Below, in pieces: positions 4,756 through 49,978 of a stretch of DNA of 64,000 bases (positions within the stretch are counted from its first letter, which is position 1; the number at the start of each line of letters is the position of its first letter). The DNA comes from Rhodothermia bacterium (lineage in GTDB: Bacteria; Bacteroidota; Rhodothermia; Balneolales; Balneolaceae). The position numbers and the translations under genes were made by a program. The notes under the pieces are model-generated. The model was not told the origin of the DNA, ran no database searches, and saw nothing but the letters and a program-made list of their open reading frames with translations. The DNA lies in assembly GCA_030427885.1 (NCBI GenBank), contig JAUICM010000001.1, forward strand, positions 434,001 to 498,000, read 5' to 3'.

Positions 4756-4852
4756 AGCTAGAAATTCTAACAAGTACAAGAGACAGTTTGAACAAATTGC
4801 TAATTAGTTGAAATGAAATATTTGTAATTGAGTGTATAGAAATATTCTAATC

Positions 4853-4914
4853 TTTGTAAGCGTGGAGCCAGATTAATCTGGCTTTTTTCCTTTGATCAAA
4901 CGAAATATAGACCG
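4853..4914 (+). repeat. Direct repeat, copy 2 (end of methyltransferase gene)
   Basis: This second copy of the 4188-4249 sequence still encodes the FVSVEPD-stop tail of the ATP-grasp gene in the plus frame. On the minus strand it encodes the true C-terminus of the methyltransferase. It therefore looks like the original junction of those two convergent genes. Confidence 0.75.
4866..4888 (+). terminator. Palindromic terminator at the convergent junction
   Basis: AGCCAGATTAATCTGGCT (4866-4883) is a perfect 18-base palindrome followed by a T-run to 4888. It would stop plus-strand transcripts from the small ORF, and it contains the methyltransferase stop codon. In repeat copy 1 the matching position is mutated and no hairpin remains. 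Confidence 0.7.
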
Positions 4915-5487: not shown

Positions 5488-5493
5488 TTCAGT

Positions 5494-6914: not shown

Positions 6915-6968
6915 GTTAAACCTGGTTGGTTGGTCGTCAAGTTTAATAAAAGAAAATTGAATTATACA

Positions 6969-8270: not shown

Positions 8271-9199
8271 TCGATCACCTCAGCACCTTTAGCATTGATT
8301 GGAGAAACATACACATTAGCATCAATATCGTTTGAGGAATAGATTTCTTTGAATTTCTGGCTGACGATTTCAGCAGTACTTAGATCTTTGGAAAGAGCAA
8401 AAATAGATGGTCCTGACCCTGATATGCTGCAGCCTAGAGCACCTAATTCCATAGCAGAGTTTTTAACCTCGCTAAACAAGGGGATAAGCATGGATCGGGT
8501 GGGCTCAGCTACAACATCAACCAAAGACCGTCCGATAAGCTCATAATCACCTTTAGCGAGGCCTGCAACCAAGCCACCTACATTACCCCATTGCTTAATT
8601 GCGTCTTTCAATTCGATCTGTCGCCTCAGGATCCTTTTTGAATCAGAGGTTTTAACTTCGATCTGAGGATGTACCACCGAAACATATAGTTCTTTAGGGT
8701 AATCCAATTCTATAACATCAAGCGGATCGTATGAACGAACAAGTGTAAATCCACCCAATAATGACGGGGCTACATTATCAGCATGAGGGAGCCCGGATGC
8801 AGCACGTTCGCCTTCCATTGCAAACCTGACAAGTTCTTTATCACTGAATGGATCTCCGAGTAACTTATTGACAGCATACACTGCAGCAGAGGAGCTGGAA
8901 GCGCTAGAGCCCAAACCACTTCCTCCGGATACCTTTTTGGTGATTTCAAATTCAAAACCTTGATCTGGTTTTTCAGTCAGTGCATTTAATAAGGCCTGGA
9001 CAGCAACAGTTGCCACATTCTTTTCAGGCTCAGTTGGGAGCCCTTCACAGCCATGGATAGCAGTGACTCTGAGTCCTGGTGCATTAGTTTTTTTAACAAT
9101 GATCTCATCACCAATGCCTTCTACTGCAAAACCCATTACATCAAACCCGCAGGCAACATTGGCGACAGTAGCAGGTGCAAATACTTTAATTGAATTCAT
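8267..9199 (-). CDS. thrB: Homoserine kinase
   Basis: This GHMP-family kinase of 310 residues phosphorylates homoserine. The ATP-binding loop GGSGLGSSASSSSAAV lies near residues 92-107. The N-terminal FAPATVANVACGFDVMGFA and the C-terminal SISGSGPSIFAL are standard GHMP motifs 1 and 3. It sits 10 bases after thrA and overlaps thrC. The length is typical. Confidence 0.96.
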   Translation of the reverse strand: MNSIKVFAPATVANVACGFDVMGFAVEGIGDEIIVKKTNAPGLRVTAIHGCEGLPTEPEKNVATVAVQALLNALTEKPDQGFEFEITKKVSGGSGLGSSASSSSAAVYAVNKLLGDPFSDKELVRFAMEGERAASGLPHADNVAPSLLGGFTLVRSYDPLDVIELDYPKELYVSVVHPQIEVKTSDSKRILRRQIELKDAIKQWGNVGGLVAGLAKGDYELIGRSLVDVVAEPTRSMLIPLFSEVKNSAMELGALGCSISGSGPSIFALSKDLSTAEIVSQKFKEIYSSNDIDANVYVSPINAKGAEVIE

Positions 9200-9209
9200 A
9201 ATATTCCTG

Positions 9210-11660
9210 TCAGGCTGAAGTGATTCTCATTACATCCGCGAAGATGCCCGATGCAGTAACCGCCGCTCCGGCTCCGGCTCCTTTTATCACCAATGGTTGA
9301 TCAGGATATCTCATAGTCTCGAATAACACAATATTATCCTTTCCCTGAAGCTCATAGAAGGGGTGATCGGGCCCAAAGGTTTCGAGGCCTGCTTTGGCTT
9401 TTCGGTTTTCAAGGCTGGCCACAAACTTGATCCTTTTACCTTCAGATTGAGCTTTGTTATACAATTCCTTGAAAACATGATCGAATTCATCAAGCTTATC
9501 ATAGAATTCTTCAATGCTGTCTGTATTCATACATTCCTCGGGTACAAATGGATCGCTGTCAACATCAGAAAGTTCCATTTTATAACCACTTTCGCGGGCC
9601 AGGATCAGGATCTTCCGCATCACATCAACGCCACTGAGGTCAATTCGCGGATCAGGTTCAGTGTATCCTTCAGCTTTTGCCTGTTTTACCACATCGCTGA
9701 ACTTCTGGGTACCGTCATAGGTATTGAATAAGAAGTTCAAGGTTCCGGATAAAACAGCCTGTATCTTATAGATCCGGTCTCCACTTTTAAGTAGATCACC
9801 CACGGTTGAAATCACCGGCAATCCAGCACCAACATTGGTTTCGAATAGGAATTTTGCCTGATATTTAGTGGCTGTTTTCTTTAATCCAAGGTAGTGATCA
9901 AAATCTGAAGAGCAGGCTACTTTATTCGGTGTTACCACAGAGATACTATTCGTCAAAATTTGCTCATATAGATTGGGGATATCATTGCTGGCAGTACAAT
10001 CTATGAAGATGCTGTTTCGCAGGTTCATCTCGATCATCTTTTCAGTGAAAGATTCCTGAGTCATGGGGAGACCTTCCTTTTCGATCTGATCGGACCACGT
10101 GTTGAGATCGATAGGTTCTTCACTGAAGAGCATTTTTCGGGAATTAGCTAATCCACAAACATTCAGTGATATCTTGAAGGCCTCATTTAAAAATTTTTGC
10201 TGGGATTCAATCTGCTCCAGAAATGCCTTTCCTACATTACCTACCCCAATCATGAATAGATTGAATTTACGAAGGTCGGAGAGGAAGAAACTTTCATGGA
10301 GTGAGTTAAGAGATTTACTCAGGTGCTTCTTATCAACTACCACAGAAATATTGAGCTCTGTAGAACCCTGGGCAATGGCCTTAACATTGATACCATTATG
10401 ACTCAGGGTATCGAAAAGATTGGCACTCACCCCAACCTGTTGACGCATACGTCGCCCGACCATAGCAATTATAGACAGATCTTTTTCAACGGCCAGTGGG
10501 TTTACTTTCCGGATGCGGATCTCATTCTCAAACTCACTTTCGATGCTTTTTCGAGCCCGCTCTGCATCTTTATGAGAAATACCCACAGTGATGGTGTGTT
10601 CAGAGGATGCCTGTGTTATCATGATCACATTCACGCCAACACGGCTTAAGGCTGAAAAAAGGCGGTGAGAGAAATTAGGTACAGCAACCATGCCTGATCC
10701 CGAAAGAGTACACAGTGCGACATCCTCAATACAGGAGATTCCTTTTACCCAGTGCCCGTTCAGGTCTCCATTATCAGAGATCATGGTGCCTTCATCTCCA
10801 TCTGCAAACGTATTCTTGATAAGAACAGGAATTCCTTTGTCGAGTACTGGCTGGATAGTAGGAGGATAGATCACTTTTGCTCCAAAGTGGGAGAGTTCCA
10901 TCGCTTCTTCATAAGACAGATGGGTTATAGGACGTGCCAGAGGAACCAGTTTAGGATTAGCAGTCATCATTCCGCTGACATCAGTCCAGATCTCCAACAG
11001 ATCGGCTTGTACAGCTGCTGCAATAAGAGCTGCGGTATAATCAGAACCACCCCGTCCAAGTGTTGTCGTATGGTTATCAATATTTGAGGAAGCCAGGAAA
11101 CCTGGGCACACACTCACGTCAGCCGGCTCCTTCAATTCAGACTGCAGATTACTGAAAGTCTGATCGATATCAACTACCGCATTACCAAACTGTGCATCGG
11201 TTTTAATAAGTTGTCGTGGATCAAGTAGCTTCGTATCTAGTCCGCTGCTTTTGAAATAATCAGAAATGATGATAGAAGAGAGGCGTTCACCAAAACTCAG
11301 AATGTTATCGCTTGAGCGAGGTGAAAGTTCCTGGATAAGAAATACACCTCTGCAAATATCTTCCAGATCATTAAGCAGGAATTTCACCTGGGTAATGGTA
11401 TTACTTCGCTGAGAGACAGGGATCAGTTTATTGCATAATTCGATATGCCGGGTTTCAATTTCTTTCAGTATCTCCTGATATGCTTCGTTCCCGGTAGCAG
11501 CCAATCCTGCACAGCTAACCAGGTTATTTGTAACTCCGCCTAAAGCTGAAACAACAACGACCTGTTTATCAGAATCAGATCTTTTACCAACAATTTTTTG
11601 AACGAGTTTGAGACTGTCTGCACTACCAACAGAAGTGCCTCCGAATTTTAAAACTAACAT
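9210..11660 (-). CDS. thrA: Bifunctional aspartokinase/homoserine dehydrogenase
   Basis: This 816-residue fusion catalyses the first and third steps from aspartate to homoserine. Residues 1-290 are the kinase (KFGGTSVG at 4-11, GRGGSDYTAALIAAA). A regulatory region with tandem ACT domains (SGSGMVAVPNF, IAQGSTELNISVVV) follows to about 455. The rest is NAD(P)-dependent homoserine dehydrogenase, beginning at MIGVGNVGKAFLEQ. The architecture is that of threonine-inhibited ThrA. Bases 11661-11984 upstream hold a Thr/Ile-rich leader ORF and hairpins, pointing to attenuation control of the whole operon. Confidence 0.96.
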   Translation of the reverse strand: MLVLKFGGTSVGSADSLKLVQKIVGKRSDSDKQVVVVSALGGVTNNLVSCAGLAATGNEAYQEILKEIETRHIELCNKLIPVSQRSNTITQVKFLLNDLEDICRGVFLIQELSPRSSDNILSFGERLSSIIISDYFKSSGLDTKLLDPRQLIKTDAQFGNAVVDIDQTFSNLQSELKEPADVSVCPGFLASSNIDNHTTTLGRGGSDYTAALIAAAVQADLLEIWTDVSGMMTANPKLVPLARPITHLSYEEAMELSHFGAKVIYPPTIQPVLDKGIPVLIKNTFADGDEGTMISDNGDLNGHWVKGISCIEDVALCTLSGSGMVAVPNFSHRLFSALSRVGVNVIMITQASSEHTITVGISHKDAERARKSIESEFENEIRIRKVNPLAVEKDLSIIAMVGRRMRQQVGVSANLFDTLSHNGINVKAIAQGSTELNISVVVDKKHLSKSLNSLHESFFLSDLRKFNLFMIGVGNVGKAFLEQIESQQKFLNEAFKISLNVCGLANSRKMLFSEEPIDLNTWSDQIEKEGLPMTQESFTEKMIEMNLRNSIFIDCTASNDIPNLYEQILTNSISVVTPNKVACSSDFDHYLGLKKTATKYQAKFLFETNVGAGLPVISTVGDLLKSGDRIYKIQAVLSGTLNFLFNTYDGTQKFSDVVKQAKAEGYTEPDPRIDLSGVDVMRKILILARESGYKMELSDVDSDPFVPEECMNTDSIEEFYDKLDEFDHVFKELYNKAQSEGKRIKFVASLENRKAKAGLETFGPDHPFYELQGKDNIVLFETMRYPDQPLVIKGAGAGAAVTASGIFADVMRITSA

Positions 11661-11738
11661 TAATAAATACGATGAATATGTGAGTGTTGAGCGTTTTAAA
11701 GTAGGAAATATATCCTAAGGAAATGATATGTAAATATG

Positions 11739-11848
11739 TACCCCCTAAGGGGTAATAATGGTGGTAATAATAATAGTAGCCATCGTTGTTACGCTCGTAA
11801 CGATCGCTGAAGATTGGGTGCTATGTATTGCTTTGTGTGCCATTATTA
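11739..11848 (-). promoter_or_regulatory. Hairpin-rich leader region of thrABC
   Basis: Several alternative pairings are visible. Hairpin A is 11782-11804 (AACGAT with ATCGTT, with a nested GTTAC/GTAAC alternative). Hairpin B is 11739-11754 (TACCCC/GGGGTA) and includes the leader stop codon. A 9-bp inverted repeat (11753-11761 with 11840-11848) could sequester the leader start codon using the Thr/Ile codons near the end. Hairpin B is followed by AU-rich sequence but not by a clean U-run. It is therefore open whether control is by transcription termination or by translation. Confidence 0.5.
11745..11843 (-). CDS. thrL: Candidate threonine-operon leader peptide (ThrL-like)
   Basis: This ORF of 32 codons plus TAG begins at ATG 11843-11841, 84 bases before thrA. 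The peptide starts MAHKAIHSTQ and ends TIIITTIITP. It contains 8 Thr and 7 Ile, and nine of the last ten residues are Thr or Ile. E. coli ThrL has the same character: a short leader rich in Thr and Ile codons, whose ribosome stalls when those amino acids are scarce. No strong Shine-Dalgarno is visible. Function is inferred from composition and position. Confidence 0.75.
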   Translation of the reverse strand: MAHKAIHSTQSSAIVTSVTTMATIIITTIITP

Positions 11849-11902
11849 TTTACCAACTCTAGTCTATTTCTTTTTAAGCTTAATGTAAACCCCTTTGTAT
11901 GA

Positions 11903-11908
11903 ATTATA
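11903..11908 (-). promoter_or_regulatory. Possible -10 box of the thr operon
   Basis: The minus strand reads TATAAT here, 60 bases before the leader ORF. No convincing -35 box is seen at the usual distance. The region is AT-rich, so a chance match is possible. Confidence 0.3.
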
Positions 11909-11984
11909 ATTAATTAAGGAAGATTAATTTGCTAGGCTAATTATTGTGAATATTTTTGAGCTTTTTAATTAAAAAGGTATCAAT

Positions 11985-12719
11985 ATGAGACAGCATTTTA
12001 AATGTATTAAATACAAGTTATTGTTATTAATAATTATATTTTCAATCCCAATGAATTTTGATGTATTAGCCCAAAGTACAACTTTTGGAATTATAAGATG
12101 GAATATTCGTAATGGTGTTGAAAAATCGATTGTAAAGGATAAAGACATTAATGTAACCTACGACTATTATGCAGCAGGAGTAGAAGGGGTATATTATACT
12201 GATGACATCTATTATCGTGGGAAAATTTACGCTTTTGCAACTGCTAAAAATGATGACAACGGAACTCCATATCAAACAACAAATGGAAGCTTTATAGATA
12301 TTGTATTAGGTGCCTATGATGCTGGGGATGATATTTTTTCTTATGGGTTTGGGCTCAGAGGTGACTTTGAACAAAACGGAATCAAAACCTATGATAATGG
12401 AAAAAAAATATCTCCTAAATCCGCTGATATTGGACTTGATTTTCCTTACACGTATAGTTTAAATGATCTCATAAGGATAAATGGGTATGGGAGTGCATTA
12501 AATGTTTGGACAGAAGAAAAATTCCTTGGGGGTTACGTACTTGATCTGAATACTGAACTTCATGTTTCACCATTATCCTTTTTATCTGTCGGTGCTGGTA
12601 TTAATTACTATATGAAAAGAACAAAAACTCTGGATGATGAAGTCTATAAACTAAGGGCTTTTTACTGGAATGTATTTGTTGGAATTAGCTTTAATGGAAC
12701 TGCTCAAAGTTGGTATTAA
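11985..12719 (+). CDS. Putative outer-membrane beta-barrel protein
   Basis: This 244-residue protein of unknown function has an N-terminal hydrophobic helix ending near VLAQS (signal peptide). The rest has alternating strands rich in Tyr, Gly and Asp (YYAAGVEGVYYTDDIYY, SYGFGLRGDF, FLSVGAGINYYMKR) and ends with an aromatic residue. This fits a small outer-membrane barrel of about 8-10 strands. Base composition is more AT-rich than in the thr operon or galE, so it may be a later arrival. It stands alone on its strand, upstream of a tRNA on the other strand. Confidence 0.65.
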   Translation: MRQHFKCIKYKLLLLIIIFSIPMNFDVLAQSTTFGIIRWNIRNGVEKSIVKDKDINVTYDYYAAGVEGVYYTDDIYYRGKIYAFATAKNDDNGTPYQTTNGSFIDIVLGAYDAGDDIFSYGFGLRGDFEQNGIKTYDNGKKISPKSADIGLDFPYTYSLNDLIRINGYGSALNVWTEEKFLGGYVLDLNTELHVSPLSFLSVGAGINYYMKRTKTLDDEVYKLRAFYWNVFVGISFNGTAQSWY

Positions 12720-12721
12720 AT

Positions 12722-12753
12722 AAAAAAGCTCCTGAGAAAAAACTCAGGAGCTT
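12722..12753 (-). terminator. Terminator after tRNA-Leu
   Basis: The 11-bp perfect stem AAGCTCCTGAG (12726-12736) / CTCAGGAGCTT (12743-12753) has a 6-A loop. On the minus strand it is followed by U6, two bases beyond the tRNA 3' end. On the plus strand no T-run follows, so it serves the tRNA rather than the barrel-protein gene. Confidence 0.85.
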
Positions 12754-12755
12754 AG

Positions 12756-12837
12756 TACCAAAGGTGGGACTCGAACCCACACTTCCGAAGAAACACGATT
12801 TTGAGTCGTGCGCGTCTACCAGTTCCGCCACTTTGGC
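12756..12837 (-). tRNA. tRNA-Leu (anticodon CAA)
   Basis: This 82-nt class II tRNA has acceptor GCCAAAG with CTTTGGT, D-arm GGCGGAACTGGTAGACGC, anticodon stem CACGA/TCGTG around loop CTCAAAA (anticodon CAA, reading UUG), a long variable arm, and T-arm GTGGG-TTCGAGT-CCCAC. The discriminator is A73. CCA is not encoded. Position 1:72 appears as a G-U wobble. Confidence 0.93.
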
Positions 12838-12962
12838 TCAATTTGGATATCAAAGGTAAGACTAACCAGTGATAAATCACAAAGCACAAATTTCAAAATC
12901 TAAATAAATCTTAAATACTTTAATTTTACACCTGGAATTTAAAGATTGGAAGGTGAAAGAAG

Positions 12963-13973
12963 TCATTTATACCCATTCGGATTATTTGATTGCCATCTCC
13001 AGGTATCCTTGCACATTTCCAGGATATCGAGTTCTGCCTTCCAGCCCAGTTCCTTCTCTGCTTTGGTAGTGTCAGCCCAGATAGCAGCTGCGTCACCTGG
13101 CCTACGGTCTACAATTTGGTAAGGGATCTCAATACCAGAAGCTTTTTCAAAGGCTTTAACCATATCCAAAACACTGGAGCCTTTGCCAGTTCCTAGGTTA
13201 TAGATAACGAGCCCTGAATCAGATTTTACTTTTTCTAAAGCTTTAAGGTGACCCTTTGCCAGATCCACAACATGAATGTAATCCCGAATGCCAGTTCCGT
13301 CATGGGTAGGGTAATCATCCCCAAATACTGAAAGTTTTTCAAGTTTACCTACAGCAACCTGGGAGATGTATGGCATGAGGTTATTAGGTATTCCATTTGG
13401 ATCCTCACCGATAATTCCGCTTTCGTGTGCACCTACAGGATTGAAATACCGGAGCAAGGCAATGTTTAAAGAGTTATCTGCTTTATAAAAATCTTTTAGC
13501 ATATACTCATTAAAAAGCTTGGTTCTTCCGTAAGGATTAACGGCAGAAAGAGGGGAGTCTTCGGTAATAGGTATGATGTCAGGTTCACCATATACCGTGC
13601 ATGAGGAACTGAAAACGAGGTCTTTAACTCCATGCTTTTGCATGATCTCGAAAAGCACGAGTGTTCCATCGATATTATTCCGGTAGTACATAAATGGTTT
13701 TTCAACGGATTCCCCAACAGCTTTAAAAGCAGCGAAATGAATTACTGAGTCAATTTTGTGTTCTTTAAAGACCTCATCAAGAGCAGTCTTGTTAATCAGG
13801 TCGATCTTGTAAAAAAAAGGCTTTCTTCCGGTTATCTGGTGGACCCTGTTCAATGACTCAGCACTGCTGTTTGAAAGGTTATCAACAACAACAACCTGCT
13901 TACCTTCATTTAAAAGTTCTAAAACGGTGTGGCTCCCTATATAACCTGCACCACCAGTTACTAATACGGCCAT
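12963..13973 (-). CDS. galE: UDP-glucose 4-epimerase
   Basis: This 336-residue extended short-chain dehydrogenase interconverts UDP-glucose and UDP-galactose using bound [18 protein letters not shown] (7-21) binds [13 protein letters not shown] supplies the Ser, and [12 protein letters not shown] supplies the Tyr-X3-Lys pair. [13 protein letters not shown] and [15 protein letters not shown] are GalE signatures. Length is the same as in E. coli GalE. It is a single gene with no galactose-operon partners nearby, so a role in envelope sugar supply is likely. Confidence 0.96.
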
Positions 13974-39472: not shown

Positions 39473-39919
39473 ATGGGTCAACAACAATTACTTCTTGTAA
39501 TTCTCGTAACAATAATCGTGGGTATCGCTACGGTAGTAGCTATTAACACGTTCAGTAACTCTGCAGATTCAGCTAACGTTGATGCAGTAAGAAATGACGT
39601 TGCATCTATTGCAGCTGCAGCTCAGGGATATTACATCAAACCAGCTATGCTTGGTGGTGGTGGAAACAGCTTTTCTGCTATTACCTTCAATAACATCGCT
39701 TTTGCAGCTGATTCAGTTTCTGCTAACGGCTTGACTGCAATCAACTCTAACGGTGTTTATGTTCTAACTAATGGTGATGATGCAGAGTTCACAATTACTG
39801 CACATCCAACCAGTAGAATTGCAGGAACTCCAACATTGAGTTCTACAGCTACTGAAGGTGCCGGTTCATTGGAAGCTACAGTAGGTGAAAGTACTACTAC
39901 TTTTGACGACAACCAGTAA
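39473..39919 (+). CDS. Major type IV pilin-like protein with two-residue leader
   Basis: This 148-residue protein starts MG, then QQQLLLVILVTIIVGIATV, an uninterrupted hydrophobic helix as in type IV pilins. A prepilin peptidase would cut after Gly2, leaving a leader of only two residues. The conserved Glu5 of class a pilins is missing. The globular part has YYIKPAMLGGGGNSFSAIT, shared with the next gene, and ends in Ser/Thr-rich sequence. A strong Shine-Dalgarno AGGAG (39462-39466) and a terminator right after the gene suggest high, separate expression of a major subunit. Confidence 0.78.
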   Translation: MGQQQLLLVILVTIIVGIATVVAINTFSNSADSANVDAVRNDVASIAAAAQGYYIKPAMLGGGGNSFSAITFNNIAFAADSVSANGLTAINSNGVYVLTNGDDAEFTITAHPTSRIAGTPTLSSTATEGAGSLEATVGESTTTFDDNQ

Positions 39920-39936
39920 GTAGCAGAGTATTTGGT

Positions 39937-39970
39937 AAAAAGCTTTCCAGTACTGGAAAGCTTTTTTTTT
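39937..39970 (+). terminator. Internal terminator between the two pilins
   Basis: AAAAGCTTTCCAG and CTGGAAAGCTTTT form a 13-bp perfect palindromic stem, followed by a long T-run to 39970. It would let most transcripts end after the first pilin and a minority read into the machinery genes. Confidence 0.88.
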
Positions 39971-39998
39971 ACAAATAACTAGATGATCGGTACATCCA

Positions 39999-40367
39999 AT
40001 GGGTCAACAGCAGTTATTATTGGTCATACTGGTTGCGATCATAATAGGTTTAGCAACAATTTTAGGGTTAGTCCTATTTGAAAACTTTCGTGACGATTCG
40101 ATAAAGGATCTTATTAAACAGGATATGATGGAAGCCGCTGGTATTGCACAAAAATTCTACACTAGGCCCATCGGACTTGGAGGTGGTGGTGAGTCTTTTG
40201 TTAATATTACTCTTGATATAATCAATTTAGATTCATCGAATATTGTTACTAGATTTACTATTTCAGAAACCGCAGAGACTTACTTTAAGATCGAAGCAGA
40301 TCCGATAGCAGATATTGATAATTTTACAGCCGTTGTTTATCGTAATCGAATTGAATGGGAAGAATAG
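39999..40367 (+). CDS. Minor pilin-like protein
   Basis: This 122-residue protein has the same unusual start MG-QQQLLLVILVAIIIGLATI as its neighbour. It also shares the motif FYTRPIGLGGGGESFVNIT at the end of the pilin helix. The C-terminal part is different and more acidic. It is a paralogue, probably a minor or assembly-initiating subunit. It lies beyond the internal terminator and 19 bases before pilC, so it is expressed with the machinery. Confidence 0.75.
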   Translation: MGQQQLLLVILVAIIIGLATILGLVLFENFRDDSIKDLIKQDMMEAAGIAQKFYTRPIGLGGGGESFVNITLDIINLDSSNIVTRFTISETAETYFKIEADPIADIDNFTAVVYRNRIEWEE

Positions 40368-40386
40368 TTTAACCTATACAGATTAA

Positions 40387-41721
40387 ATGCCACAATTTAG
40401 ATTAAAAGCAGTTTCACAGACTGGAAAATCAGTACAAACAGAGTTTGAAGCGGATACAAAAAAAGATGCTCAAATTAAAGTAGATCGACTCACAAAGTCT
40501 AATGGGTTAAAAATTCAATCTATTGATCAAAAGGCTACTTTCCTTTACAAAGTTAAGAGAGCTGGTAAAAAACCAGTTAATGGTGAACAGGAAGCTTATA
40601 GTAAAGAAGAACTTGAGAGAGCACTTGTAAAACTTGGATATCAGGTTGTAAGCATCAATAAAAAGTGGTTTGACTTCAAGGGCGGTGTGCCGATGACAGA
40701 GGTGGTCTCTTTCATTCGGATGTGCGCCGACCTTCTTAAACAACAGCTTACTTTCGATGAGATATTAAACCTGCTTATTGAAGATTCTACAAATAAGCGG
40801 ATGAAAGAGGTTATTAAAGAAATTCAGAAAGACCTTAAAGAAGGTAAGGAAGGTTCGCAGGTATATGGGAAGCATGAAGCCATTTTCGGAAAATTCGCAG
40901 CATATATGCTTAGTGTAGCTTCAACTTCAGGTAATATGGCCATGGTTTTTGATAGTACAGCTAAATTCATGGAGAGAGACGCTGAGTTTAAAAAGAATAT
41001 GAAACGATCGCTGATGATGCCTGCCGTAACTGTTCTTGCTGTAATTGGGGTAGTGCTGTTCTATGTGGGATATATATTCCCGGCTACAGCAGAGCTTTTT
41101 GTTGAAATGGATATTCAATTGCCACCTATGACGCAGGCAACTCTGGACTTCAGCTATTGGCTCGGTGATAACTGGATATATGTCTTATTAGTATTCCTGG
41201 CTCCAATTATTGGATTCATTTTCTTTGCTAAATCTCCCAAAGGAAAACTCACCATTGATAAATATTTAATTCACATTCCAGTGATTGGAGACCTGTTACA
41301 TAAAACAAGTATTGAGATCTTTTCCCGTGTATTTTACACTTTATATAGTGGTTCAGGGCAAAATATTGAGGTAATTAAGGTGGCGGCTGAGGCCTGCAGA
41401 AATAAATACATGGAGAAACAGATCAAAGAAGTTGCCATCAAAAAGATGTTAAAAGATGGTGCTGGTTTGATAGAATCAATGGAAGAGACAGGGGTTTTTA
41501 CACACACAGCTATTAGCCGTTTCAGACTTGGTGCGGAATCCGGAGCATTACGGGATAATGCCCGGCAACTTGCTGAGTATTATGAGATTCAGACAACATA
41601 TAAGATGCAATCTGTAATTGATACAATAAATTTGTTCATAAATTTATTTATAATGGTTGCATTGATAGGTATAACAGTCGTTTCTTCAGAGTCAGCAACG
41701 ATAAATCCAAGTGCTCAATAG
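40387..41721 (+). CDS. pilC: PilC/GspF inner-membrane platform protein
   Basis: This 444-residue protein has two T2SSF domains (about 105-230 and 300-430). Membrane helices lie near MPAVTVLAVIGVVLFYVGYIF, YVLLVFLAPIIGFIFF and the C-terminal LFINLFIMVALIGITVV. The region before them contains two copies of the small beta domain that normally occurs once: FRLKAVSQTGKSV and, after about 48 residues, FLYKVKRAGKKPV, each followed by the Ala/Leu-rich helix. PilC anchors PilB and PilT under the growing pilus. Confidence 0.93.
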   Translation: MPQFRLKAVSQTGKSVQTEFEADTKKDAQIKVDRLTKSNGLKIQSIDQKATFLYKVKRAGKKPVNGEQEAYSKEELERALVKLGYQVVSINKKWFDFKGGVPMTEVVSFIRMCADLLKQQLTFDEILNLLIEDSTNKRMKEVIKEIQKDLKEGKEGSQVYGKHEAIFGKFAAYMLSVASTSGNMAMVFDSTAKFMERDAEFKKNMKRSLMMPAVTVLAVIGVVLFYVGYIFPATAELFVEMDIQLPPMTQATLDFSYWLGDNWIYVLLVFLAPIIGFIFFAKSPKGKLTIDKYLIHIPVIGDLLHKTSIEIFSRVFYTLYSGSGQNIEVIKVAAEACRNKYMEKQIKEVAIKKMLKDGAGLIESMEETGVFTHTAISRFRLGAESGALRDNARQLAEYYEIQTTYKMQSVIDTINLFINLFIMVALIGITVVSSESATINPSAQ

Positions 41722-41732
41722 CAGTGTAGTTT

Positions 41733-43508
41733 ATGGGTAAAATTAACATCAGGAGGCATATAGGAGATATCCTTGTAAGCAGGGGTGTTGTCACTGATGA
41801 ACAATTACAAAAGGCACTTGCCATTCTCGAGGAAGAACCGGTAAGCAGCTCTCGTCGTCTTGGGCAAATCTTATTTCAGGATTTGGGATTGAACCGGCAT
41901 ACTATAATGAGGGAGATATCAAAAGTATACGCCTTCCGTGAGGTATTGCCAGATGTAGAACAAGTTCCTGACGATATCATCGATCACATCAAAAAAAATG
42001 TTGAAAAGCTGCCTGAAGATGTAATTGATGAGTTGGTCCACCATAAGGCAGTTCCTTTTCAGCGATTAAATGGTTCATTAACCATTGCTGCAGCAGACCC
42101 ATCAGATCCTAGTATTCAAACTATTTTAAACAAACTCAGTTTCAAGCAAACAGAGCTTGTTTATTGTAATTATGAACTCGTTGACCAGATACTTGGTAAA
42201 GTATATGAGCAGAAAAATGAGTTCCTGGATCTTCTCGAAGAGATTGATTATGAAGAACCACAGATCGATCAGAGTGATGAAGAGATCAATGAAGAGGAAA
42301 TTGATGCAGAGATTAACCAGAGTATGCTTAACTCTCTGGTGGAGGGGATGTTGGTTGAATCAGTTCGTCAGGGCGTTAGTGACCTTCATATACTTCCCAG
42401 TGGCCCTACTACTACAGATATTCGTTTCAGGATCGATGGTAAACTTCAGCTTTGGTATCAGCAAAACAATGTTAAACCTGAAGCTATATCAGCTGTAATA
42501 AAAGATAAAACCCGAAACGTTGACCGCTTCGAGCGTGATGCTTCTCAGGATGGATTCATTCAACGACAGATAGATGGTTACAATATCCGTTACCGTGTTT
42601 CGATCATGCCTATTGTTGGAAATCAATACGATAGAAAATTTGAATCTATTGTTATCCGGATACTTGACGACAGAAAGGTGATTCGGGATCTCGATTTATT
42701 AGGTTTACAGCCCATTGCAAAGAAAAATTTCGTTAAATCAATCCAAAAGCCCTCCGGTATCGTAATTATAACGGGTCCAACAGGTAGTGGTAAATCAACC
42801 ACTCTTGTAGCCGCATTATATTATGTGATCGATCCGACATTAAACGTATTAACAATAGAGGAGCCGGTGGAGTACATCATCGAGGGTGCAAGACAGTTGA
42901 AGATCAGTACTTCAATGACTTTTGATCAGAGTATCAGAGGTATTCTTCGTCATGACCCTGATATCGTACTTGTGGGTGAGATGAGGGATCTTAAAACAGC
43001 TGAGATTGCTATTAAACTGGCTAACACTGGTCACTTAACTTTCTCCACGCTTCACACTAATGATGCTCCCAGTGCGGTATCCCGTTTATTTAAAATGGGT
43101 GTTGAACCGTTTTTGATCGCAAATGCTGTTAACCTGGTTATGGCACAGCGACTGATACGAAGACTTTGTAAGGATTGTAAAGAAGAATTTAAACCACATC
43201 CCGAAATAGCTAAGGGTATTGGTTTTACTGACGAAGAAATTGAAAACACCACATTCTTTAAACCTGTGGGCTGCGACAAATGTAGTGGATCAGGATATAA
43301 GGGTAGAGCTGCAATACACGAGGCTTTATTTTTTTCAAAAGAAATTAAGCAGATGATACTTGATGCTGGTGGAGATATTGATGAGAATGCTATTAAGGAT
43401 CTGGCAGTAAGCCAAGGTATGTTAACTCTTCGAGGATCAGGAAGAGAAAGGATCAAAGAAGGAGTAACTTCTATTGAAGAAGTTATAGCAATAACTATTG
43501 AGGATTAA
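41733..43508 (+). CDS. pilB: PilB/GspE pilus-assembly ATPase
   Basis: This 591-residue protein has an N-terminal MshEN-like domain (IGDILVSRGVVTDEQLQKAL and RRLGQILFQDLGLN), the type known to bind cyclic-di-GMP. The ATPase core has Walker A ITGPTGSGKSTT, Asp box IEEPVEY, Walker B VLVGEMRD and His box TGHLTFSTLHTND. A four-Cys zinc site follows (LCKDC and CDKCSGSGYKGR). Residues 175-200 are very acidic. It powers pilus extension. Confidence 0.95.
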   Translation: MGKINIRRHIGDILVSRGVVTDEQLQKALAILEEEPVSSSRRLGQILFQDLGLNRHTIMREISKVYAFREVLPDVEQVPDDIIDHIKKNVEKLPEDVIDELVHHKAVPFQRLNGSLTIAAADPSDPSIQTILNKLSFKQTELVYCNYELVDQILGKVYEQKNEFLDLLEEIDYEEPQIDQSDEEINEEEIDAEINQSMLNSLVEGMLVESVRQGVSDLHILPSGPTTTDIRFRIDGKLQLWYQQNNVKPEAISAVIKDKTRNVDRFERDASQDGFIQRQIDGYNIRYRVSIMPIVGNQYDRKFESIVIRILDDRKVIRDLDLLGLQPIAKKNFVKSIQKPSGIVIITGPTGSGKSTTLVAALYYVIDPTLNVLTIEEPVEYIIEGARQLKISTSMTFDQSIRGILRHDPDIVLVGEMRDLKTAEIAIKLANTGHLTFSTLHTNDAPSAVSRLFKMGVEPFLIANAVNLVMAQRLIRRLCKDCKEEFKPHPEIAKGIGFTDEEIENTTFFKPVGCDKCSGSGYKGRAAIHEALFFSKEIKQMILDAGGDIDENAIKDLAVSQGMLTLRGSGRERIKEGVTSIEEVIAITIED

Positions 43509-43580
43509 GACAGATTTAAGTTTTTTTAATCATGAAATTAACCCATATTTAAACGCTTTAGGAAAATAAGTGAGGTTTTT

Positions 43581-44084
43581 ATGAGTACAGGACTGGACGC
43601 TTCAGGCGAGTCAATGGCCGAATACATAAAAAAGTTTTTAAAAGAGCCCCCGTTGCTACTTAAGAACTTTCATTATGAAGATGTGTTGGAGTTTCTGCAA
43701 CTGGGTGCAGAAGAACGTTTTCAGTCTGATGATGTGATACTAAATGAATCTGAGTATGTAAACTCAGCTTATTTAGTAGCTGAAGGAAAAGTGGCGATAT
43801 GGAAGGACAATATACAGTTGGCTACCTTATCTGAAGGTAATTTCTTGGGCGAAGCCTTTCTTTTTAGTAAAAACAGCAGGATGGCTAAAGTAACTGCGGA
43901 AGGGGATTGTGTATTACTTAGATATGAAAGATACGAGGCTTTAAATTTCTTCAGAAAAAAACCTGAAAAATTGTTCAATATTTTCACTAAAAATATCATC
44001 GAAATACAGCAGAGAAAAATCAGCAATATGAATGTCCAATTGTTGAATCTGAAAAAAAGATTACTAAATGATTCAAACTGGTAG
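43581..44084 (+). CDS. Cyclic-nucleotide-binding-domain protein without DNA-binding domain
   Basis: This 167-residue protein has a CRP-type beta-barrel over residues 35-125: SAYLVAEGKVAIWKD, LATLSEGNFLGEAFLF (the phosphate-binding-cassette region, with FLGEAFLFSKNSRMAKV) and VTAEGDCVLLRYE. The C-terminus is a helix only, with no helix-turn-helix. The cassette retains Gly-Glu, and an Arg (SRMA) is present. Encoded between pilB and pilT, it may be a small regulator that acts on the motor. The ligand is not provable. Confidence 0.78.
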   Translation: MSTGLDASGESMAEYIKKFLKEPPLLLKNFHYEDVLEFLQLGAEERFQSDDVILNESEYVNSAYLVAEGKVAIWKDNIQLATLSEGNFLGEAFLFSKNSRMAKVTAEGDCVLLRYERYEALNFFRKKPEKLFNIFTKNIIEIQQRKISNMNVQLLNLKKRLLNDSNW

Positions 44085-44183
44085 CAAATACTGCACCTTT
44101 CAATTGAATTTTTTTATTAGATTTTCGTAACAAAAGTCATTCAATTTAATCTATTATTTCCATCATAAAGATGGGAACTACTA

Positions 44184-45425
44184 ATGGCGGCAATTGATAT
44201 CACCAAAATTTCGGGGCTGACAAAGCCTATAATAGAGCGTATCCCAAAAACTGCGCGTGGGATTGATTTGCACCGCAGAATTGGTGATCTGATCGAAGAT
44301 TCTGATATCAGTTTACGAGTGGACTTAAAAGAAATACTTGATTCTTTTCTGGTTAACATGATCAAAATTAATGCATCAGATATCGATATTGGAGGTCCGG
44401 GTTGTGCCGGAAAAGTCTGGTACAGGGTTTTTGGGGATAAAAGTCCGTTAAAACTACCGAAACCACTTTCAGTATTAGAAACTGATATATTGCTGCATAA
44501 TGCGATCTTAGAGTCTCAGCGCGAACATTTAATAGAGGGAAAAAATCTCGATTTTTCTTATTCGATTAATATTGGAAAAGACAGAGTACAGCGTTTCAGG
44601 GCAGATATGTATTTTGATCTGGATCATCTGGGATTGAATATGAGAAAGATCGATAATACAATTCGTCCTTTTAAAACTTTAGGGGTTCATGCAGAAGTAG
44701 CTAAAGCAGTAAGTCTGAAATACTTCAAATATGGGCTCTCGCTGATAACCGGGATCACCGGTTCCGGTAAATCTTCCACATTAGATACAATTATTGACGC
44801 CAATAACAGAACAGTTGATGCCCATATTGTTATTATAGCTTCTCCAGTGGAATTGATACACGACCCAATCAGGTGTGTTGTAAGGCACAGAGAGGTAGGT
44901 AGTGATGTCACTTCATTCAAGGATGGTGCAATTCAGGCCCTTCGTCAGGATCCTGATATTATTGTTATTGGTGAGCTTCGTGACCCGGAAACTATTATGA
45001 CTGCTTTGGAAATCACAGATTCAGGTCACAAAACCTTTGGAACCCTGCATACTTCTTCTGCAATGGAAAGTATAGAAAGGATATTAGGTGAGATGCCCAC
45101 AGAAGAACAAAACAGGGTACGTTCAAGATTGGCAGATGTATTGACCTGTGTTGTAAGTCAGAAACTAGTACCTAGTTTAGATGGAAAACGTGTTCTGGCA
45201 AAAGAAGTTTTGCTTGCAAATGCTTCAGTGAGAGCTGCCATCAGAAATAACAATATTGGTGAGATTTACCAAATGTTAATGGAAGGTCGTGATCGTGGTA
45301 TGAATACTATGGAACAGGACTTGAAAAGACTTTATGATGAGGGCAAGATATCTAAGGATTCTGCCTTAAACTATGCTAATAATAAATCCAAGATGCTTCA
45401 ATTGTTAAGCGAAGTTACTTACTAG
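44184..45425 (+). CDS. pilT: PilT-like retraction ATPase
   Basis: This 413-residue protein has Walker A ITGITGSGKSSTLD, Walker B IIVIGELRDPETI and His box SGHKTFGTLHTSSAMESI, followed by PilT-type AIRNNNIGEIYQMLMEGRDRGM. The Asp box reads IIASPVELIHD where PilT proteins normally have an IEDPIE-type sequence, so the Glu-Asp pair is lost. The N-terminal 60 residues are longer than in most PilT. It probably drives retraction, but altered catalysis is possible. Confidence 0.92.
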   Translation: MAAIDITKISGLTKPIIERIPKTARGIDLHRRIGDLIEDSDISLRVDLKEILDSFLVNMIKINASDIDIGGPGCAGKVWYRVFGDKSPLKLPKPLSVLETDILLHNAILESQREHLIEGKNLDFSYSINIGKDRVQRFRADMYFDLDHLGLNMRKIDNTIRPFKTLGVHAEVAKAVSLKYFKYGLSLITGITGSGKSSTLDTIIDANNRTVDAHIVIIASPVELIHDPIRCVVRHREVGSDVTSFKDGAIQALRQDPDIIVIGELRDPETIMTALEITDSGHKTFGTLHTSSAMESIERILGEMPTEEQNRVRSRLADVLTCVVSQKLVPSLDGKRVLAKEVLLANASVRAAIRNNNIGEIYQMLMEGRDRGMNTMEQDLKRLYDEGKISKDSALNYANNKSKMLQLLSEVTY

Positions 45426-45435
45426 AACATCTATA

Positions 45436-47229
45436 ATGGCAAAAGGCAATTTATATACCGGAAAAGTACTTGAAGGCGATGTGCTTAAAGTAGCGGTAGT
45501 CCGTATTACAAATAAAAAGCTTCAGCTTGTACGACTGAACAAAATGCCTTTGGTAAGTAAACTGGAAAAGAATGTTGAGGAATTTAAAGAGAGTGATGAA
45601 GACGTATTTTCTGAATTAGGTGAAGATCTCTCCGACGATTCCGTATTTGATATCGATCTTGATGCCGCACTGAAAGAGGGAGAAGACGATGATGATGATC
45701 TGAATCTTGATATGGATTTTGATCTGGAAGAAGACATTTTAGGAGACCTTGAGGGATCTGATAGCGATGATGAAGAAGATGATTTAGAGCTGGATCTGGA
45801 AGGTCTGGAAGAATCTGATGAGCTTATCGACCTTGATATGGTTGATGAAACCGGAGCTCCGGCTTCTAACGAGATGTTATTCTATAGCATAGTTTCAGCT
45901 GTAAACACTAAAAAAGCACGAATAGCACTTAATATTCCTGCAGGTGTGGCAATATTCCAAATCCTTAAAGACGTTGATTTTAACGAAGTAAAAAAGAAGG
46001 ACCTGAAGATTATTGTCGATGATCGCTTAGAATCGCTCTATGGTACCCCAAAAGGCGAAGATTACTACTCCTATGGCGTAAGAGATGATGGAGCATTGTT
46101 ACTTTCATCAATTGATGAAGATCCACTGCTTCTCCAGCTGGCTAACAGGTCACTTTCCATGTTCAAAGGAAAGTTATTCATTGAAGAAGTACTTCCTGAT
46201 GAGACTATTCTATTGGGTTTGATCAGGGCAAATTATACTTTCGAGGATGATGGGATTACCTGTGTAATTCAATTTTCAGAAGAAAATTGCCGTGTAAACT
46301 TCTTGAAAGGGGATAAGTTATGGTTAGTTTCTCCGATCATAACGGAAGGTGTTAATTCAAAGAAATTCCTGAATACTGTATTTAGTAAGATCCTTTTCCA
46401 GCTTGATACAGGTGAAGTGCCGAATCTGGACAGACTTATAATCTGTAACAACTCCCTGGAAGAAGAAGCAATTGATTTCTTCCGAGATAGATTTCCAGAT
46501 GTTGATGTATCAGAGTTTGAATTTTCAGAAGATTTCTTTGATCCGGGTGATCATACCGAGATCTCATTATCACAGTACACTACAGCTATTGGTACAGCCT
46601 GGTCAGCAACTGGATTTGAGAAAAAGCATTTCTCGGGTATTTCATTCCTGCCTAAATACGTAATTGACCGGCAAAAGATATTTAAACTTCAATGGCATGG
46701 ATTCCTCATTCTTTTAATGATAATGATCTCGTTTCCTGTGATGGATGAAGTCCGCCGACAAGTAAATACCGAGATCGATGCGATTGAAAATGAAATATCA
46801 CTTCTAAACACACAGATTCAAACGTTCGCTCCAACTGTTAATAATTATAACAGGATAAGTGCTGAGCTGGGCCAGATTCAGGATAAGCTTGTTTTGCTTA
46901 ATTCACTTGCAGAAAATTCAATTACTTGGTCATACACACTGGATTTGCTTAATAGTGGTATTCAGGATATTAACTCGGTTTGGCTTACTTCTGTTAGTGT
47001 TGGAGAAGAACCAAATACGCTTGAAATTCAGGGAATAGCCCGATATCGAAACCGTATTCCAATGATAGCTGAATTATTTGATGAAGCAACTCTGTTAAAT
47101 GTGAGCAGATCAGATATTCGGGAAGAAGAAGTTTTTACTTTCAGTTACCAGATAAGCAGTATTGTTGAAGACAATTCAGTTTATACTCCTTCTAATTTAA
47201 AAGGTCTGGAGGAGCTTACCGGTCAATAA
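45436..47229 (+). CDS. PilM-PilN fusion with acidic insert
   Basis: This 597-residue protein opens with a short beta start and a very acidic low-complexity stretch (51-137, mostly Asp/Glu/Leu). Residues 145-400 resemble a divergent PilM, actin-like but without clear ATP motifs. A membrane helix (419-437), a coiled coil (437-490) and a ferredoxin-like domain (490-590, SVWLTSVSVGEEPNTLEIQGIA) match PilN. In classical systems these are two proteins joined by the PilN N-terminal tail. Position before a PilO-like gene supports this. Assignment is structural inference. Confidence 0.72.
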   Translation: MAKGNLYTGKVLEGDVLKVAVVRITNKKLQLVRLNKMPLVSKLEKNVEEFKESDEDVFSELGEDLSDDSVFDIDLDAALKEGEDDDDDLNLDMDFDLEEDILGDLEGSDSDDEEDDLELDLEGLEESDELIDLDMVDETGAPASNEMLFYSIVSAVNTKKARIALNIPAGVAIFQILKDVDFNEVKKKDLKIIVDDRLESLYGTPKGEDYYSYGVRDDGALLLSSIDEDPLLLQLANRSLSMFKGKLFIEEVLPDETILLGLIRANYTFEDDGITCVIQFSEENCRVNFLKGDKLWLVSPIITEGVNSKKFLNTVFSKILFQLDTGEVPNLDRLIICNNSLEEEAIDFFRDRFPDVDVSEFEFSEDFFDPGDHTEISLSQYTTAIGTAWSATGFEKKHFSGISFLPKYVIDRQKIFKLQWHGFLILLMIMISFPVMDEVRRQVNTEIDAIENEISLLNTQIQTFAPTVNNYNRISAELGQIQDKLVLLNSLAENSITWSYTLDLLNSGIQDINSVWLTSVSVGEEPNTLEIQGIARYRNRIPMIAELFDEATLLNVSRSDIREEEVFTFSYQISSIVEDNSVYTPSNLKGLEELTGQ

Positions 47230-48092
47230 TGTCATACGCTGTACGAAATACCATCATTTTATTGGTAAGCCTGTTTTTAATTGTAGGTTCTGGATATTCC
47301 TATCTCAAATTTTTTCTTGAAGCGGAGAGAGATTCACTTCAGCAGGAACTTGATACAAAGAAAAGAGACTTCGATGCAAAACAGAATATCAATAATGAGT
47401 TCAATGAACTGAATGACCGGTACCAGGCTGCTTTACGATTCATTGAAAATTATGATAAATCTCTTTATCCGACTAACAAGCCAGATGATGTCTATGATTT
47501 TATTAACGCCATCAATGAAAATGGTGGTGGAAAGATTTTCTATGATTTCGTTTTCAATGATTCTATTCCTGATAATCAGTATGGAATCATCGAATCACAA
47601 CTCTCTGGATTTGGTAATTACGCTGAAGTAACAAATTTCATTAATAGAATTGAACACAGCCAACTTTTGAATAAAATATCTGAATTATCTATTTCGCCAG
47701 GCAGAAGTGATGATGATATTAATGATGTTAACTTTTCTTTCCATTTGGAAAGTTATTATCAAAAGTCTGCTATTTTTGACACTTTGAATTATGATTATAA
47801 CATTGTTAAAGATCCTGATATTTCAACTTACAACCCATTGTACCCACTAATTCAGACTACTTTTCCAGCAAATGATGAGGGATTGGTTAATGTGGAAACA
47901 AGCAGAATGGTAGGTATAACCGGAAACAGAGTATTTTTGATCGGACAGGGTGGAAAAGTAATTTCACTTAAAAAAGGCGACAGGGTTTATCTGGGATCCC
48001 TGACAGATATCGATTTGCAGAAAAAAACAGCTACATTTAATCTAAACAAAGGCGGCATTCAAGTTGTAGTTACCTTGGAGGTAGACCGATGA
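47229..48092 (+). CDS. PilO-like protein with PilP-like tail
   Basis: This 287-residue protein has one helix (8-27), a coiled coil (28-75) and an alpha/beta domain to about 175 fit PilO. The C-terminal 70 residues (MVGITGNRVFLIGQGGKVISL, then KKGDRVYLGSLTDID and FNLNKGGIQVVVTLEV) look like the small beta domain of PilP/GspC, which contacts the secretin. Its ATG overlaps the stop of the previous gene (TAATG), and its stop overlaps the next ATG (ATGA). Confidence 0.68.
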   Translation: MSYAVRNTIILLVSLFLIVGSGYSYLKFFLEAERDSLQQELDTKKRDFDAKQNINNEFNELNDRYQAALRFIENYDKSLYPTNKPDDVYDFINAINENGGGKIFYDFVFNDSIPDNQYGIIESQLSGFGNYAEVTNFINRIEHSQLLNKISELSISPGRSDDDINDVNFSFHLESYYQKSAIFDTLNYDYNIVKDPDISTYNPLYPLIQTTFPANDEGLVNVETSRMVGITGNRVFLIGQGGKVISLKKGDRVYLGSLTDIDLQKKTATFNLNKGGIQVVVTLEVDR

Positions 48093-49978
48093 GTAAAAAA
48101 GGAATGAGAATGAATAAGAAATTGCTCCTGTTAGCACTTTTGGGATGTATTATTCCTTTGTTAGGTGTTCAGGAACTTCATGCACAGGATAAGTATCCGA
48201 GAGAATATACTAATCCTGATGAGATCGTAGCGTTTGATAAAAGCACCAATTATACCGAGGCCATCGAGGTAATAAATCAATTCATGCAGGAGTATCGCAA
48301 CAAGTTTGTGATCGACCAGACTAATACAAGTGGTGTAATCGGAACTTCATTACCTGCAATGCATTGGGAAGACGCCTTCCAGTACATTCTCAGATTTAAG
48401 AAACTTACAACAAAGGAAACGGATGAATATGTTGAGATTATAACCCTGGCTGAAGCTGGCCAGGCTGCAGGTCAACAGCAAGCATCATCATCCAGTGGGC
48501 AATCTTCAGATTCTGGTTCAGCTGAAGGTGAGGATGAGATAAACTTACAGACGAGGGAGGTGCGAATTCATGCTACTTTCTTTGAAGGAAATAAAAGAGC
48601 CTTACAGGAAATTGGTGTTGACTGGTCTACTCTCACATCTAACGTACCAAGCAATTTAAATGAGATCGTTGCTGGCGAAGGTCCAACACCAGATGTGAGT
48701 GTACCACAGCCGGTTGGATTCGGAAATCAGCAATTTGTCTCAGTGAATTCCTTTAATGCCGCCAATGTATCCACAAATGCATTTAATGCTCTTGTTAATT
48801 TAGGTGAACTTGGAGCCGGTATAAGTGTACAGGCGTTATTCAGTGCTTTTGAAGCTGATAACCTGGGTGAGGTTATTGCAACTCCATTTACAAAAGTTGT
48901 GGATGGCAAAGAAGGCCGTATTCAGGTTGGTCAGGATTTCTCCATAAAACAAAGAGATATAGCAGGGAATGTTACCGATCAGTTTTTTAGTACTGGTACT
49001 ATTCTCACAGTTACTCCGATTGTAATTACAACAAACGACACTACTTTTATTCATCTTACAATTGAAGTAGAACGTTCATCTGCTCAACCGGATGCGGTTA
49101 GTACCATTATCAATAAACAGGAAGCTACTACTGAAGCTTTACTCCTGAACGGTGAAGCAACAGCAGTTGCGGGCTTGTACAGAACTGAAGAAAGCAAAGT
49201 ACGACGGGGAGTACCGATACTTAAGGATCTTCCACCATGGTTCTTTGGTCTGAGATATCTGTTCGGTTATAATTCTAATGACTATGTTGAAAATGAACTG
49301 GTCATTATAGTACAGGCTGAATTAGAGAAATCACTGGAGGAGAGACTTCGACAAAAAACCTTTGCCAGCCAGAGATCAGTTCTTGATGATTCCAGAAGTG
49401 GGATGCGGGATCAGCTTGACAGGGTCTTTGAAAATGAAGTTGCTAACAAACCTATAGTTATTGAAGATACTCCTGATGTTGAAGAACAAGAAGAATTATT
49501 TCCCGAACAGGAAAAAACAGACCTTACTATGTCTCAGGACACTGTAACTACTGATACTAGTACTTTGGTATCTGAAAACGATGAACCGGAAGTCTTAACA
49601 GAAGAAGATCAAAAACTGGCCGAAGAGTTGAGTATACCAGTGGACGACCCTGAACTGATGGTAGTTGTACCGCGTGCTTTTAGTCTTGATGAATACCTTG
49701 AGAAAAAAGCTAATGGTGAGGAACTTGAAGATGAACAATCAACAGATCTTAAATATTTCGTGATTGGAGGTTCTTTTCTGGTAAAAGGTAATGCAGACAG
49801 ATTTACTGCAGACCTTAAAGAAAGAGGCTTTGATACCCGCGTATTGTTTCATCCTGAATCGAGATTCAACTTCGTGGCTTATCAGGGCTTTGCCAGATTT
49901 AAGGAAGCCGTAGAGTATCTGAAAATGGTGAGAACGGAGTATAATTCAGAGGCCTGGTTGTTCACTAAACAACAGTAG
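48089..49978 (+). CDS. Secretin (PilQ-like) with C-terminal SPOR domain
   Basis: This 629-residue protein has a signal peptide ending near ELHAQD. One short N-domain occupies 35-120 and a Gln/Ser linker follows. The secretin channel spans about 155-425: VRIHATFFEGNKRALQEIGVDW, EVIATPFTKVVDGKEGRIQVG and VPILKDLPPWFFGLRYLFGY. An acidic linker leads to residues 551-629, whose LKYFVIGGSFLVKGNADRF and AYQGFARFKEAVEYLKMVR read as a SPOR domain that binds denuded peptidoglycan glycans. It forms the outer-membrane pore. AMIN domains are missing, and SPOR may replace them. Confidence 0.82.
   Translation: MSKKGMRMNKKLLLLALLGCIIPLLGVQELHAQDKYPREYTNPDEIVAFDKSTNYTEAIEVINQFMQEYRNKFVIDQTNTSGVIGTSLPAMHWEDAFQYILRFKKLTTKETDEYVEIITLAEAGQAAGQQQASSSSGQSSDSGSAEGEDEINLQTREVRIHATFFEGNKRALQEIGVDWSTLTSNVPSNLNEIVAGEGPTPDVSVPQPVGFGNQQFVSVNSFNAANVSTNAFNALVNLGELGAGISVQALFSAFEADNLGEVIATPFTKVVDGKEGRIQVGQDFSIKQRDIAGNVTDQFFSTGTILTVTPIVITTNDTTFIHLTIEVERSSAQPDAVSTIINKQEATTEALLLNGEATAVAGLYRTEESKVRRGVPILKDLPPWFFGLRYLFGYNSNDYVENELVIIVQAELEKSLEERLRQKTFASQRSVLDDSRSGMRDQLDRVFENEVANKPIVIEDTPDVEEQEELFPEQEKTDLTMSQDTVTTDTSTLVSENDEPEVLTEEDQKLAEELSIPVDDPELMVVVPRAFSLDEYLEKKANGEELEDEQSTDLKYFVIGGSFLVKGNADRFTADLKERGFDTRVLFHPESRFNFVAYQGFARFKEAVEYLKMVRTEYNSEAWLFTKQQ

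Follow-up and report, generated by a model that had tools for sequence, protein, structure and literature searches.

We analysed a 64,000-nucleotide window of the genome of a Rhodothermia bacterium (assembly GCA_030427885.1, contig JAUICM010000001.1, positions 434,001 to 498,000), which holds the core operon of a divergent type IV pilus. The host genome is 4.1 Mb long and 98.7% complete, and its relatives are Balneolaceae. As the original prediction had described, nine open reading frames lie in one direction on the + strand, at window positions 39473-49978. Their order, pilA-(pilA2)-pilC-pilB-cNMP-pilT-pilMN-pilOP-pilQ, where cNMP stands for a cyclic-nucleotide-binding protein, is shared by some 20 Balneolaceae loci. 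Elsewhere in Bacteroidota, other orders and classes have the core pilA-pilC-pilB-pilT-pilMN-pilO-pilQ with lineage-specific insertions; several of these lineages place minor pilins between pilB and pilT. Outside Balneolaceae the cNMP gene is mostly lost. Because gene order is kept in Balneolaceae and in other Bacteroidota classes, the block is not a chance arrangement. Profiles and predicted folds back the pilin, PilC, PilB, PilT, the PilN segment, PilO-PilP and the secretin, in line with the proposed divergent type IV pilus locus. The most unusual feature, which that prediction passed over, is that the pilins are leaderless and that the prepilin peptidase PilD is missing from most genomes carrying them.

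The major pilin PilA1 (39473..39919, 148 residues) begins MGQQQLLLVILVTIIVGIATVVAINTF. The second pilin, PilA2 (39999..40367, 122 residues, MGQQQLLLVILVAIIIG), is 36% identical to PilA1, has the same N-terminus and is homologous to the second pilin of relatives. Both begin MGQQQLLLVILV and have no class III leader. An AGGAG ribosome site adjoins the ATG of pilA1, and the reading frame is closed by a stop four codons upstream. We collected 132 distinct pilin genes from Balneolia, Rhodothermia and other Bacteroidota. The start is MGQQQ in 117 of them and the same after GTG or TTG in 4, and the remaining 11 are variants (MANKE, MGKRE, MGNRE, MGSQQ, MGTQQ, MAQQQ). No in-frame start codon precedes the upstream stop in 128/132 genes, and that stop lies within 10 codons in 112/132. 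Misassigned start codons concealing a leader are thus ruled out by the in-frame stops just upstream.

Leaderless subunits also occur outside the window. The same genome encodes an orphan leaderless pilin on contig C8 (MGQQQMMTVILV) and three sets of minor pilins on contigs C13 and C4 (for example MQSYSDIFFLGAAMVL, MNAGIITSFVIGGILL and MGKSLLFLVAGLTIL), likewise leaderless, with stops 0-10 codons upstream. Minor pilins of relatives are leaderless as well. The window pilins have no Pfam or NCBIfam match over cut-off, and TIGR02532, the NCBIfam prepilin cleavage model, gives no match in these leaderless pilins; it matches, above its cut-off, the pilin on C4 of this genome.

Two consecutive leaderless minor-pilin triplets (L198, C13:204000-218000, at 4322-9300 and 9422-13852) adjoin a possible adhesin of 1476 residues, which combines an Invasin_D3 domain with a Por_Secre_tail, a type IX secretion signal. 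PilX/GspK-like leaderless minor pilins with DUF4900 or DUF7305 are found in the window genome (L198 4325-5824, L199 4420-5706) and at L066:12824-14140. Both domains are Pfam families of unknown function, and a role in pili may follow from their placement in minor pilins. In an Aliifodinibius-type genome a 509-residue protein with multiple membrane spans is encoded between pilin and pilC (L019 1053-2582); it looks by eye to be of the Wzy/O-antigen-ligase type and is possibly a pilin glycosylation ligase. One Bacteroidota family carries a second PilB-like ATPase gene directly 5' of leaderless pilin genes (L151 6202-8040, L152 8786-10678).

We modelled PilA1 with AF2 from 17 sequences (pLDDT 85) and compared the model by VIA-align. 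It consists of a helix at residues 2-55 and a strand-rich head. Rows 1-17 of the VIA-align result are all type IV pilins, with Z from 9.4 to 5.1, and no non-pilin scores above Z 4.2. The top row is PilA4 of Thermus (6xxd, Z 9.4), with model residues 2-148 aligned to chain residues 1-113. Model residue 4 lies on residue 1 of 1oqw (Z 7.1), and residue 1 of full-length pilins falls on model residue 2 to 4, so that the reading frame starts where mature pilins start. Plain Foldseek E-values are poor (best 0.35) and the sequence match to geopilin has an E-value of only 0.0023; despite these values, chance likeness to pilins is ruled out by the predicted fold, which agrees with the earlier call of two pilins.

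We then asked how often such pilins coexist with PilD. In a class sample of 164 genomes, each at least 90% complete and with overlaps counted by hand, the pilin is present in 114 and the peptidase profile PF01478 in 16, with both in 13; thus 101/114 carriers are without PilD. Likewise, in a phylum sample of 392 genomes the pilin is found in 138, PF01478 in 46 and both in 15, leaving 123/138 carriers without detectable PilD. A second profile, built from 15 PilDs of the class sample and searched to E 1, added only weak partial matches. A third, which included divergent Bacteroidia PilDs, found extra PilDs only in pilin-negative families. The weak extra matches (E 3e-5 to 1) span the 13-110 region of the profile or just its short ends, often contain stops or fall in frames of 300-600 residues, and were judged to be chance. 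Twelve carriers without PilD are single contigs (G038, G067, G085, G103, G113, G116, G257, G263, G305, G341, G384, G390). The pilus operon adjoins the pilins in PilD-less genomes too, and pilin N-termini are alike in genomes with and without PilD.

The remaining genes of the block encode the pilus machine. Between pilA1 and pilA2 lies an A/T-rich perfect hairpin followed by T9 (aagctttccagtactggaaagcttttttttt, 39940..39970, + strand), read by eye and not on the pattern-scan list. It is a possible terminator or attenuator and, standing directly after pilA1, would possibly limit transcription of the downstream operon relative to the major pilin. The inner-membrane platform protein PilC/GspF (40387..41721, 444 residues) matches T2SSF (PF00482, E 1.6e-27) and the NCBIfam models GspF (1.8e-48) and PilC (3.5e-42). 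The extension ATPase PilB (41733..43508, 591 residues) matches T2SSE (E 2.7e-98) and has an N-terminal MshEN region (E 3e-7). Its best NCBIfam model is type_IV_pilB (E 1.1e-133; 446.8 bits, below the strict NCBI cut-off of 675.65), and an NCBIfam model of a cyclic di-GMP motif matches below its cut-off (1.3e-7). The retraction ATPase PilT (44184..45425, 413 residues) matches pilT_fam of NCBIfam (E 4.2e-91; 305.7 bits, not reaching the cut-off of 319.1) and T2SSE (3.6e-34).

The next gene (45436..47229) encodes a 597-residue protein in which residues from about 48 to 140 form an acidic linker. Its profile matches PilN in the pilus machine of Myxococcus (3jc8) over profile positions 402-523 (E 5.7e-10), and it carries a PilN-like motif, ISFLPxYVxDRQK (INLLP-like, here ISFLP), followed by a transmembrane helix. 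Residues 140-405 have no PDB match by sequence, and the PilM half is putative, assigned by position only. The following 287-residue protein (47229..48092) gave an AF2 model with pLDDT 78.6. Residues 81-179 match PilO (2rjz, Z 11.7 over 97 residues at 2.4 Å; 5uvr, Z 10.4), and residues 211-287 match PilP (2lc4, Z 9.3; 2y4y, Z 8.6) and also GspC (3oss, Z 8.7 over 57 residues at 1.1 Å). The modelled structure is thus strong support for a PilO-PilP fusion. The PilQ-type secretin with a C-terminal SPOR-like domain (48089..49978, 629 residues) matches PF00263 (E 3.6e-26) and, best of its group, the IV_pilus_PilQ model (5.7e-30). SPOR reaches only E 0.047 in the window protein, below cut-off, and 1.6e-8 and 2e-6 in the orthologues of L020 and L019; secretins outside Balneolaceae are shorter (417 residues in L083).

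Both checks that the original prediction had named as able to refute it came out in its favour: the fold of the 287-residue protein and the PilN match of the 597-residue protein agree with the proposed identities, and the gene order is kept. These results also qualify that prediction in part. Its view that the subunits are too divergent to be named holds for the pilins, PilMN and PilOP, none of which passes any cut-off, and fails for PilB, PilT, PilC, the secretin and the cNMP protein, which standard profiles name. Among its three proteins with fusions or extra domains, the PilO with a PilP-like tail was confirmed by predicted structure and the PilN segment of the supposed PilM-PilN protein is strong by profile; the PilM part is putative, and the SPOR domain at the secretin C-terminus is weak in the window and clear in orthologues.

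The protein encoded between pilB and pilT (43581..44084, 167 residues) is a stand-alone cyclic-nucleotide-binding domain (cNMP_binding, E 1e-12) with no DNA-binding domain. It keeps this position throughout Balneolaceae and is 54-92% identical in 16 relatives. G90, E91 and R100 of its phosphate-binding cassette are invariant across all 17 sequences from Balneolaceae, and a C-terminal helical segment is near-invariant (PEKLFNIFTKNIIEIQQ.KI.NMN). In L066, a relative in another family, the cassette arginine is missing. We regard this protein as a candidate for regulating the pilus motors directly; together with the MshEN region of PilB, its sequence suggests second-messenger control of the motors.

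Many core genes of the block are common to type II secretion systems (T2SS), GspF is the model that gives PilC its highest score, and Bacteroidetes have secretion systems derived from type IVa pili (PMC6668835). Thus, the block might build no surface filament, and instead a short pseudopilus for protein secretion or DNA uptake, its subunits perhaps still leaderless. We consider this very unlikely, given that PilT holds a dedicated place in the operon, that the affinities of the block proteins are to PilB, PilQ, PilO, PilP and PilN, and that several major-type pilins are present. Furthermore, the same genome has a separate T2SS-like system. This second type IV filament locus (L027, C4:228000-247999) contains GspE, a secretin, PilMN-, PilO- and PilP-like genes, PilD and ordinary class III pilins, including a GspG-like prepilin (EDG/FSLTELLIVLAIIG, the slash marking the cut). 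A 2257-residue RHS-like repeat protein is encoded there between the GspG/PilD genes and the minor pilins.

The PilD of this locus (C4:237888) is the one prepilin peptidase that PF01478 finds in the window genome. The statement that PilD is not present is therefore right for the block and wrong for the genome. This sole PilD could serve both systems, cutting MG/QQQ after Gly2 as a minimal leader, in an otherwise ordinary PilD-dependent pilus: systems are known to share PilD (PMC6668835), and Gly2 is near-invariant in major pilins. We hold this to be very unlikely. In about 90% of the carrier genomes no PilD is detectable, the N-termini are the same with or without it, and several minor pilins lack Gly2 (MNAG, MQSY, MNQT). 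Known leaders have 6-26 residues (PMC4471445), against two here. Leader-bearing class III pilins (for example EDG/FSLTELLIVL) lie within about 10 kb of PilD in 20/21 PilD genomes checked, and in the single exception PilD is on a 4.4-kb contig. Because class III pilins adjoin PilD, the peptidase tracks the leader-bearing system and not the leaderless pilus. Processing by an undetected prepilin peptidase common to the phylum, unrelated or extremely divergent, seems least probable of all: the absence of PilD rests on profile searches, and CHU_3197-like PilDs of Bacteroidia, with just 22-32 bits against PF01478, show that divergence happens, but two more profiles specific to the clade added no PilD in carriers and, with in-frame stops immediately before the pilin starts, such an enzyme would have no leader to remove.

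By sequence, the leader is absent, the gene order is kept and most carriers have no detectable A24 peptidase; the pilin fold of the leaderless subunits is predicted. We think it very likely that the block encodes a retractable type IV pilus spanning the envelope, which makes no use of a prepilin peptidase and whose subunits are synthesised already mature. Major and minor pilins would be translated from mature residue 1, or from one to three residues before it. The N-terminal helix would serve as an uncleaved membrane anchor, inserted via the general secretion route. Methionine aminopeptidase would probably trim the initiator methionine where glycine or alanine follows, as in the major pilins, and at most this residue would be lost. 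PilC and PilB would move subunits out of the membrane into a filament passing through PilMN-PilOP and the secretin, and PilT would withdraw it. Neither a prepilin peptidase nor N-methylation by PilD would be required. In Balneolales, the cNMP protein encoded between the motors probably ties extension or retraction to cyclic AMP or cyclic GMP.

Several points weigh against pilins made mature. The structural register could be off by up to three residues, and many sampled genomes are drafts. Gly2 of MG/QQQ could mimic Gly(-1) of a PilD site, giving a two-residue leader, in the few genomes with PilD, and a peptidase of an unrelated family might conceivably be the processing enzyme. Finally, Glu5 is missing in nearly all of these major pilins, which leaves docking onto the neighbouring subunit unexplained. 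Model pili need the leader for processing, and they need Glu5 to assemble a homopolymer (PMC4471445). Since most major pilins here lack both, docking must use something else, and the conserved Gln3-5 is a candidate for the contact. The variants MANKELLL, MGKRELLL and MGNRELLL have Glu at residue 5 counted from Met; given the register uncertainty of three residues, it is only possibly the counterpart of Glu5. With somewhat less assurance, we consider it likely that the pilus belongs to a phylum-wide type IV filament whose major and minor subunits are all made mature, with no peptidase or N-methylation, and in which a Gln-rich N-terminus would replace the contact between N-methyl-Phe1 and Glu5.

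To our knowledge, prepilin processing by PilD is regarded as common to, defining of and essential for type IV filaments of every kind, and tools for detecting them search for class III leaders and PilD. Pilins made mature would mean that prepilin processing is dispensable, and what leader removal and Glu5 do in subunit extraction and docking would become directly testable. A large group of Bacteroidota pili would then have been overlooked, because standard annotation finds neither the subunits nor PilD. Leaderless pilins or their motifs are not described in the open-access literature that we searched; since this coverage excludes subscription papers, priority is not proven.

Comparison with known systems places the block closest to the type IVa pilus. 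A Tad/Flp pilus has a TadA-type ATPase, paired TadB/TadC and TadV, whereas the block has one GspF/PilC platform protein and its ATPase scores E 1.3e-10 with the TadA family against 1.1e-133 with PilB. A T2SS has GspE, GspG and GspC, class III pseudopilins and no PilT; the block has PilT and no class III pilins, although a PilP/GspC-type domain is common to both. Within the same phylum, the Cytophaga-type T2SS (CHU_3191-3201; PMC5553014), which has leader-bearing GFSLTELL pilins and a PilD of its own and whose locus lacks PilT, resembles the C4 locus and is separate from the window locus. Denise et al. (PMC6668835) count the prepilin peptidase as a core component and cluster a Bacteroidetes 'T2SS' with type IVa pili; that system corresponds to the C4 locus.

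MSH pilus loci likewise contain no prepilin peptidase, and MSH probably relies on the PilD of a different system in its host genome (PMC6668835); unlike MSH, most carriers of the pilins described here have no PilD anywhere, and the pilins are leaderless. Berry and Pelicic (PMC4471445) report only Nanoarchaeota as lacking a detectable prepilin peptidase. These filaments belong to a different domain of life and are described there as possessing type IV prepilins rather than pilins without a leader (PMC4471445). With the type IVa pilus of Pseudomonas, Myxococcus and Thermus the window system has in common the PilB/PilT/PilC/PilMNOP/PilQ set (PilM putatively), with its extension and retraction ATPases and PilQ-type secretin, as well as the pilin fold and minor pilins, and for PilB, PilT and the secretin the top-scoring NCBIfam model is a type IVa one. 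In contrast to that pilus, the window locus has no class III leader, no Glu5 in its major pilins and, in most carriers, no PilD. It also has PilO-PilP and probable PilM-PilN fusions, a cNMP protein between the motors and a SPOR tail on the secretin. Type IVa pili are retractable surface filaments, a property predicted for the window system from its genes. Because the machine is shared but the class III leader and PilD, by which type IV filaments are usually defined, are not, we set it apart as a variant of the type IVa pilus.

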